A DNA stretch of 64,000 nt from Moraxella sp. K1664. Its GTDB lineage: Bacteria > Pseudomonadota > Gammaproteobacteria > Pseudomonadales > Moraxellaceae. Every line of letters starts with the position of its first letter. The first letter of the stretch is position 1. The notes below the pieces were generated by a model. That model ran no database searches. It saw nothing but the letters and a program-made list of their open reading frames with translations, and had not been told where the DNA came from. Positions 45,753 to 49,242 of the stretch are shown one piece after another. Where the stretch lies: contig NZ_CP155576.1 in assembly GCF_039693965.1 (NCBI RefSeq), positions 1,860,001 to 1,924,000 on the forward strand, written 5' to 3'. A program made the position numbers and the translations under genes.

Positions 45753-47015
45753 TTATTTCATAAATGGCAACATCAAGAAGCCTTGTAGCACCACTAAGTT
45801 CATTAAGTCCACAAAGAACGCCCCCACCATCGGGATAATCAAAAATGCCTTGTGAGATGCACCATAGCGGTCGGTAACTGCTTGCATATTGGCAACAGCA
45901 GTCGGGGTTGCACCCATACCAAAACCACAATGACCTGCCGCCAGTACTGCCGAATCGTAGTTTTTACCCATGACTCTAAACGTCACAAAATAGGCAAACA
46001 AAATCATCACAATGGTTTGTGTCACTAAGATGACAACCAAAGGTCCTGCTAGGTCGGCAAGTTCCCACAGTTTTAATGACATGAGTGCCATCGCCAGAAA
46101 CAGGCTCAAAGATGCATTACCAAAGACATCAATGGCACGGTCAAACATATCAAAATTAAAGATGCTGGTCAATACGTTACGCAAAATCACGCCCGTAGCC
46201 AACGCCCACACAAAGGTTGGCACTTTGAGCTGAGCTAACCACTCAATGTCTTTGGCAACACCGCTCATATAATCGGCAGCCACCAAGCACACCGCAAACA
46301 AAGCCAACGTCTCCACCGCAGAGACGGCAGTAATAAGGCGTACGCTGTCAGATTTTTCAAAGACGGTGTTGTTAGCGTCGTTGCTAGTGTCTGTTTTGTC
46401 AAGATTGGCGTTGTTTGGTGCGGTATTGACGGCTTGTACGCCCATTTTTTTGATCAGGCGTTTTGCCACAGGACCGCCAATCAGACCGCCTGCCACCAAG
46501 CCATAAGTCGCCGCCGCGATACCCATGGTCACTGCCCCTGTTACGCCATAGTCGTTTTCAAGGGTCGCACCCCACGCACCTGCCGTGCCATGACCGCCAA
46601 TCAAGCTGATAGAACCTGCCACCAGTCCCATGATGGGGTCAAGCCCGAGCATGGATGCCAGTGCCACGCCCACGCCGTTTTGGACGAGTAGGAAGAAGCC
46701 GACCAGTACCGTCAAGATAACCAGTGGCATGCCCCCTGCCTTTAGACGGCGAAAATCTGCTGACAGACCGATGGATGAGAAAAACATGAGCATGCAAGCG
46801 GTCTGTAATTCTCTTTGGATATTAAAAACGTAGCCGTATTGGAAATTTAAAAAATAAATGATGGCAGCTGCAAGCAAGCCACCCGCCACAGGTTCGGGGA
46901 TGTTAAAATCTTCCAAAAATTTAATCTTTTTAACCAAAAATTGTCCCACAAGTAGGACGATGGTTGCCAAAATCAGCGTGTGATAGCCGTTTAGCGTGAT
47001 TTCGGTGAGTTCCAT
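45753..47015 (-). CDS. gltS: sodium/glutamate symporter, copy 1
   Basis: GltS takes up glutamate with sodium through the inner membrane. The 420-residue protein has two five-helix repeats with the family motifs GGLLAAAIIYFL and SLIGGHGTAGAWG (about residue 140) and CGFGMGATPTAVANMQAVTDRYG near the C-terminus. AAGGAG precedes the ATG. A very similar paralogue lies just upstream; the two differ mainly in the cytoplasmic linker at about residues 195-225 (NTAPNNANLDKTDTSNDANN here). Each has its own terminator. Confidence 0.93.
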   Translation of the reverse strand: MELTEITLNGYHTLILATIVLLVGQFLVKKIKFLEDFNIPEPVAGGLLAAAIIYFLNFQYGYVFNIQRELQTACMLMFFSSIGLSADFRRLKAGGMPLVILTVLVGFFLLVQNGVGVALASMLGLDPIMGLVAGSISLIGGHGTAGAWGATLENDYGVTGAVTMGIAAATYGLVAGGLIGGPVAKRLIKKMGVQAVNTAPNNANLDKTDTSNDANNTVFEKSDSVRLITAVSAVETLALFAVCLVAADYMSGVAKDIEWLAQLKVPTFVWALATGVILRNVLTSIFNFDMFDRAIDVFGNASLSLFLAMALMSLKLWELADLAGPLVVILVTQTIVMILFAYFVTFRVMGKNYDSAVLAAGHCGFGMGATPTAVANMQAVTDRYGASHKAFLIIPMVGAFFVDLMNLVVLQGFLMLPFMK

Positions 47016-47470: not shown

Positions 47471-48760
47471 TCACTGCATGAACGGTAGCATAAGATAGCC
47501 TTGTAATATTACTACGTTCATCAAGTCCACAAAGAACGCCCCCACCATCGGCACAATCAAAAACGCCTTATGCGAGTCGCCATAACGGTCGGTAACCGCC
47601 TGCATATTGGCAACGGCGGTCGGTGTCGCCCCACAGCCAAAGCCACAATGACCTGTGGCAAGCACCGCCGCATCATAGTCCTTACCCATGACATTAAAGG
47701 TAACAAAATAGGCAAATAAAATAATCGCAAGCGTTTGTACGCCCAAAATAATGACCAAAGGACCTGCTAGGTCAGCCAGCTCCCACAGTTTTAAGGACAT
47801 GAGTGCCATCGCCAAAAACAGGCTCAAAGAGGCGTTACCAAAGACATCAATGGCACGGTCAAACATTTTAAAATCAAAGACCATCGTCAAAACATTACGC
47901 AAAATCACCCCTGTTGCCAACGCCCACACAAAGGTTGGCACTTTGAGGGCGGCGAGCCATTCGACATTTTTGGCGATGTTGCTCATGATATCCGCCCCCA
48001 CCAGACACACCGCAAACAGAGCAAGGGTCTCAATGGCAGAGCTTGCGGTAATGAGACGAATGGTGTCAGGTTTTTCAAACATGTTTTTATTGGCGTTATC
48101 GTCATCGATACTGTGCTTGGTGCTATATAGCGATTGGTCGTCTGCCAGTTTTTCTACGTCCGAGCGGTCATCTTTGGCGGTGGTGGGCTGTATGTTGAGC
48201 TTACTCACCAGTCGTTTTGCCACAGGACCACCGATAAGACCGCCTGCCACCAAGCCATAGGTTGCAGTGGCGATACCGACCGTTGTCGCCCCTGTCAGAC
48301 CGTACTCGGTTTCTAGCGTGCTACCCCAGCCCCCTGCCGTACCATGTCCACCTGTGAGGCTAATCGAGCCGACCACCAACCCCATGATAGGTTCAAGCCC
48401 AAGCATGCTTGCCAGTGTTACACCAATACCATTTTGTAAAATCACAAACGCCCCAACCAGTAGGGTAAAGATAACCAACGGCTTACCCCCTGCTTTTAGA
48501 CGGCTAAAATCAGCCGATAAGCCAATAGAGGCAAAAAACATCAGCATACAGGCGGTTTGTAGCTCTGCCTGAAAAATGAAACTGTACCCAAAGACCGTAT
48601 TGATTCCCAAAATCAGCATGGACGCCAATAAGCCCCCTGCCACAGGTTCAGGAATGTTAAACTCGTCCAAAAAGCGGATATTTTTGACCAACAACCGCCC
48701 AATGAGTAGCACAATCGTTGCCAAAATCAGCGTATAATAGCCGTTTAAGGTGATTTCCAT
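47471..48760 (-). CDS. gltS: sodium/glutamate symporter, copy 2
   Basis: This 429-residue GltS paralogue shares nearly all membrane segments with copy 1, including SLTGGHGTAGGWG and CGFGCGATPTAVANMQAVTDRYG. The linker between the two halves is longer and different (TTAKDDRSDVEKLADDQSLY). The two genes arose by tandem duplication and may differ in regulation or affinity. The start ATG at 48760 is preceded by GGAGCTTA. Confidence 0.93.
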   Translation of the reverse strand: MEITLNGYYTLILATIVLLIGRLLVKNIRFLDEFNIPEPVAGGLLASMLILGINTVFGYSFIFQAELQTACMLMFFASIGLSADFSRLKAGGKPLVIFTLLVGAFVILQNGIGVTLASMLGLEPIMGLVVGSISLTGGHGTAGGWGSTLETEYGLTGATTVGIATATYGLVAGGLIGGPVAKRLVSKLNIQPTTAKDDRSDVEKLADDQSLYSTKHSIDDDNANKNMFEKPDTIRLITASSAIETLALFAVCLVGADIMSNIAKNVEWLAALKVPTFVWALATGVILRNVLTMVFDFKMFDRAIDVFGNASLSLFLAMALMSLKLWELADLAGPLVIILGVQTLAIILFAYFVTFNVMGKDYDAAVLATGHCGFGCGATPTAVANMQAVTDRYGDSHKAFLIVPMVGAFFVDLMNVVILQGYLMLPFMQ

Positions 48761-48857: not shown

Positions 48858-48943
48858 AGCATTTTTCATGCAAAAACGGTTGATTTATTTGTAAAATATT
48901 TTTAAATTATAAATAGTGCAATAATAGAGTAGGCACACCCCAA
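48858..48943. repeat. family A fragment, copy A8
   Basis: TAGCATTTTTCATGCAAAAA to GAGTAGGCACACCCC corresponds to the right third of family A. Its outer end abuts the family D element, whose target duplication includes the last bases of this fragment. Confidence 0.65.
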
Positions 48944-48944
48944 G

Positions 48945-49158
48945 CAGGGCAATCGCACTACAAAATTTTATATGGAATTGATTAAAAATCAAGCAAATTT
49001 AGTGTTTATAGTTAATTTTAACTAAATAAATTTTTAATAGATTATTCAAAGTTTAATTGGTTTGGTGGGTTTTTAAATAATTGTGCATCTAAAAATTACC
49101 AATTTCTTTAAAAACATAATTTTATTTGCTAAAAATTAAATATAGTGCGATTGCCCTG
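48945..49158. mobile_element. family D MITE-like element with 16-bp ends and 10-bp duplication
   Basis: CAGGGCAATCGCACTA (48945-48960) and TAGTGCGATTGCCCTG (49143-49158) are perfect inverted repeats. They are flanked by the direct repeat ACACCCCAAG (48935-48944 and 49159-49168). The 214-bp interior is AT-rich with no reading frame. This is a complete non-autonomous element; the parent family is unknown to me. It fills the gap upstream of prfB together with fragment A8. Confidence 0.85.
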
Positions 49159-49242
49159 ACACCCCAAGCGGTATTGATGAAAAATAATCAAATATTTGCT
49201 ATAATATGCTTTTATTTTTAAATCCATTGTAAGGTAATCATC

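Follow-up and report, generated by a model that had tools for sequence, protein, structure and literature searches.

The element described here lies in a stretch of 64,000 nucleotides from the chromosome of Moraxella sp. K1664 (the window), between a gene that we take to be gltS-like and one that we take to be prfB (with its frameshift site), both names being our own reading of the open reading frames. The window contains two adjacent gltS-like genes (45753–47015 and 47471–48760) that, judging by their 74–80% DNA identity over the repeat stretches D2, D3 and D9, are a tandem duplication. Past this pair, the 214-bp element occupies positions 48945–49158 and is flanked by an exact 10-bp direct repeat, ACACCCCAAG, at 48935–48944 on the left and 49159–49168 on the right. 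Its left end (48945–48960, + strand) is a 16-bp terminal inverted repeat, CAGGGCAATCGCACTA, matched perfectly by the right end (49143–49158, − strand). Between them lies an A+T-rich non-coding interior (48961–49142; like the direct repeats, assigned no strand). The element as a whole has an A+T content of 77%, as compared with 55% in the window (G+C content of 45%), and there is no gene inside it: only short frames of 31–46 amino acids that enter from the flanks touch the element. The earlier note on this DNA, which had described a non-coding element of 214 bp with perfect 16-bp ends and a 10-bp duplication, was correct to the base, and its statement that there was no decay holds for the ends and the duplication.

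On the prfB side, a promoter-like site of the downstream gene (49177–49205, + strand; a consensus match only, with TG before TATAAT) begins with a −35-like hexamer that starts 9 bp past the right duplication, and relatives' sequences have a TATAAT-like box upstream of the same gene. Because the insertion lies just upstream of the −35-like hexamer, it has probably left basal transcription of prfB intact. On the gltS side, the target may lie in the decayed end of another repeat, family A (48860–48941, + strand), to which the repeat matches are weak. A blastn comparison with three family A stretches reached only 48860–48887, with two of the three (88–89% identity, E values of 2e-4 and 3e-3), and the repeat rows showed 60% identity over 48889–48941 (D7) and 68% over 48861–48907 (D5). 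The earlier note had the element landing at the very end of a family A fragment; the target does sit at the would-be family A terminus (GTAGGCACACCCC versus GTAGGCACGCCCT), but the weakness of the A matches makes the nesting of one repeat in the other plausible rather than firm. Family A itself has many copies with seemingly inverted ends (AGGGC(A/G)TGCCT...GGCACGCCCT).

The genome of this strain (one 2.78-Mb contig) contains seven matches to the element, four full-length and three partial. Each of the four full copies has a 10-bp duplication, exact in three and matching at 9 of 10 positions in the fourth. The window copy differs from the copy at 1937895 at a single one of 214 positions and the copies at 282230 and 2177958 differ from each other at two, as against 14–16 between the two pairs, which points to recent movement or gene conversion. 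Among 22 genomes of the genus (own genome included), the element was matched in only three, namely its own and those of its two nearest relatives, G002 and G005. These two have in common, at orthologous positions, one copy that is full-length but decayed and lacks any 7–12-bp duplication at up to one mismatch; they also contain truncated copies. The truncated copies start exactly at the family A end (...GGCACGCCC followed directly by TAA..., at about base 1500 of L045, L046, L047 and L048), so that family A and the element adjoin repeatedly.

For each of the three sibling copies, the two flanks were joined and compared with the same 22 genomes. In G002 and G005 alike, all three sites lack the element, single alignments running through the junction in each of the six comparisons. 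The 2177958 site is a base-exact empty site in both relatives (gapless, with one target copy); at the 282230 site, the alignment to either relative has a gap of 15 bp where the flanks join, and at the 1937895 site the flank is diverged. A base-exact empty site was not obtained for the window copy, as these two relatives have diverged too far in the gltS–prfB interval. The region of the gene downstream of the window insertion was matched in 21 of the 22 genomes (own included), and the reading of the site covered the 12 of the 21 prfB loci (own included) that contain the motif used. The earlier note had named, as evidence against a mobile element, the occurrence of this sequence at the same site in every relative. 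This was not observed: in the 22-genome sample, the element is found at prfB in its own genome and in none of the others. The four full copies with independent 10-bp duplications, three of whose sites are empty in relatives, put the element beyond chance. It is short, non-coding and A+T-rich, has 16-bp inverted ends and a 10-bp duplication and exists in multiple copies with empty sites; it is thus a miniature inverted-repeat transposable element (MITE).

The earlier note had found no parent transposase in the window and had proposed a search for an autonomous insertion sequence (IS) with the same ends and duplication length. A search of the own genome for the 16-mer at up to two mismatches supplied a candidate elsewhere on the same chromosome. 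Paired ends were found at 2779119 (+) and 276–291 (−), spanning the first base of the contig record, and joining the end of the contig to its start gave a 1181-bp IS (G000 2779119..291). One of its ends (CAGAGCAATCGCACTA and CAGGGCAATCGCACTA) is identical to the MITE end and the other has one mismatch, and a 9-bp duplication, AAAGCCGAT, is present on both sides. In contrast to the MITE, this IS has an unrelated interior with a single intact open frame of 370 codons. The frame encodes, from its first Met, a 364-aa transposase that matches the ISAs1 family model (NF033564, transpos_ISAs1) at 338.8 bits with a cut-off of 70 and contains the Pfam domains DDE_Tnp_1_assoc and DDE_Tnp_1. A second ISAs1 copy (878054–884871 of the own genome, L030) is broken, being interrupted by approximately 5.7 kb. 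In this insert, by our reading, IS1-like and IS5-like transposase frames flank a gene for a 1324-aa protease-autotransporter-like protein, and the whole is possibly a composite insertion.

The same ends are found more widely in the family. Of the 299 family genomes sampled, 11 contain the exact 16-mer and five of these have a match to the transposase at E ≤ 1e-60; the other six have none at that threshold, so either some of these genomes lack the mobiliser or theirs is more divergent. In G027, the two ISs examined, of 1182 and 1179 bp, each end in perfect copies of the identical 16-mer and are flanked by exact 10-bp duplications, the duplication length of the MITE; the transposase matches in this genome are 69–80% identical to the own-genome transposase. 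Target duplications of the ISAs1 family are 8–10 bp long. We infer that G027 is Moraxella osloensis, since its contig 2 match agrees, with coordinates within 3 bases and on the same strand, with the match in plasmid NZ_CP047227.1. A 526-bp element in G263 (L122 1501–2026) has these ends, likewise perfect, with a duplication of 10 bp, and retains transposase residues 1–83 and 131–194 at 63–64% identity; by these remnants, it is an internally deleted ISAs1 element.

On this evidence, we favour the view, with a probability of about 0.93, that the 214-bp element is a MITE that an ISAs1-family transposase moves in trans. ISAs1 parentage is indicated by the identity of its ends with those of an intact ISAs1 IS and by the ISs of G027, with their identical ends and 10-bp duplications; against it, the sole intact IS found in the own genome departs from the MITE by a mismatch in one of its ends and by a duplication of 9 bp rather than 10 bp. 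It is probably the ISAs1 transposase encoded in the same genome that moves the MITE. Supplied in trans, an ISAs1 transposase would bind and cut the 16-bp ends, a 10-bp staggered cut at insertion would yield the ACACCCCAAG duplication, and the gene-less interior would serve as a passive A+T-rich spacer. Naming a likely parent for this repeat family allows its members in the genome to be annotated.

The element could instead be a type I MITE, derived from an ISAs1 element by internal deletion. It has the same ends as ISAs1, and the G263 element with its transposase remnants indicates that ISAs1 deletion derivatives exist. However, a type I MITE has subterminal sequence in common with its parent, whereas the interior studied here has no detectable relation to the 1181-bp IS: the significant match between the two is limited to 16–19 bp at the ends and, this being the sole similarity, the MITE cannot be recognised as an internally deleted form of the IS, so we consider this origin unlikely. 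The ends and duplication would also be compatible with movement by an IS4-family transposase of the IS4Sa subgroup, for which excerpts of PMC2266710 give ends of the form CA------T and duplications of 8–10 bp. IS4Sa parentage, which was raised from these published data, was dropped once the ISAs1 IS with matching ends had been found. In the own genome and in the family, ISs with the identical 16-mer encode ISAs1 transposases, the transposase of the own-genome IS scores 22.6 bits on the IS4 model, far below the cut-off of 115 bits, and there was no IS4-type element with these ends among the ISs found, all of which makes an IS4Sa mobiliser very improbable.

We regard it as equally improbable that the sequence is not mobile DNA at all and is instead a conserved element that regulates prfB or gltS, such as a promoter, an attenuator or a structured RNA. 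The entire element does fold better than its shuffled versions (z-scores of −5.1 and −7.5), but the interior alone scores −22.2 on the + strand, where shuffles average −22.7 (sd 3.4), and −20.2 on the − strand, where they average −16.8 (sd 3.2). It is thus at shuffle level on the former and roughly 1 sd better on the latter, and the excess comes mainly from the terminal repeats. Promoter-like sites in the region are no commoner than expected by chance, no terminator-like site was found there and the element had no match in Rfam; on these grounds, together with the fold of the interior, a regulatory or RNA function was rejected. The copies lie at unrelated loci, the relatives lack the MITE at prfB, and the empty sites of the sibling copies count against regulation as the primary explanation.

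Elements with the same ends are not confined to Moraxella. A search of GTDB species genomes, which may leave out records near the window's own, returned ten sequences of 203 bp bounded by perfect ends, all of them in Psychrobacter (P. pasteurii, P. piechaudii and P. lutiphocae). The 10-bp duplications are exact in six of the ten; those of L033, L036 and L042 differ at one position of ten and that of L041 at two (L042 and L041 by eye). The Psychrobacter elements thus have the identical perfect 16-bp ends and the 10-bp duplications of the window MITE but differ from it in sequence, with 60–66% identity when aligned, ends included, and their interiors are distant relatives of its own at most. An element of the same length, 203 bp, with the same perfect 16-bp ends is present in two IMG/VR viral contigs (L158 5956–6158; L159 1496–1698), which are a possible route between hosts; the window's own 214-bp element had no match in plasmid and phage collections.

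We compared the interiors, with the ends removed, for two copies, that of the window and that of G005, with 300 shuffles for each comparison. Against both P. lutiphocae copies, in reverse orientation, the global scores of the window and G005 interiors (10 to 15, as compared with shuffle means of −3.0 to −5.9, sd about 5) were above those of all 300 shuffles. The local scores against P. lutiphocae were mixed, being reached by 3 and 16 of 300 shuffles for the window copy and by 124 and 149 of 300 for the G005 copy. A 14-bp subterminal run is common to the tested interiors and the P. lutiphocae copies, in one consistent orientation. For P. piechaudii, P. pasteurii and G211, the global score in the better orientation was reached by 3–59 of 300 shuffles, so that the P. 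lutiphocae version is the only Psychrobacter interior that is clearly better than shuffles. With global scores at best marginal for the other three and local scores mixed, common descent of the Moraxella and Psychrobacter interiors is no more than suggestive. It is conceivable, and we propose it tentatively as somewhat short of an even chance, that the MITEs of the two genera belong to one old Moraxellaceae lineage, its 16-bp ends exactly constant and its interiors drifted until hardly recognisable, kept mobile in both genera by ISAs1 transposases whose own protein sequences diverge by as much as about 40%. The constancy of the 16-bp ends between the genera provides a natural test set for the end bases that an ISAs1 transposase needs.

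A literature search did not find the 16-mer end sequence or, in the excerpts that it covered (ISfinder being outside its scope), a published MITE driven by ISAs1, and the passages of PMC6382973, PMC9208149, PMC10969869, PMC11578231 and PMC3281130 that it returned do not describe the window MITE; ISAs1-driven MITEs thus seem to be little described. The nearest published parallel, as presented in those passages of PMC6382973, is MITEAba12 of Acinetobacter and Moraxella, a 113-bp element with 9-bp duplications and the ends GGCTTTGTTGCACAAA, whose parent is ISAba12. MITEAba12 differs from the window MITE in its IS parent and in its reported outward promoters (PMC6382973), of which there are none beyond chance here. 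The two are alike in being non-coding, in belonging to the Moraxellaceae and in having 16-bp ends that are their only similarity to the respective IS (PMC6382973).
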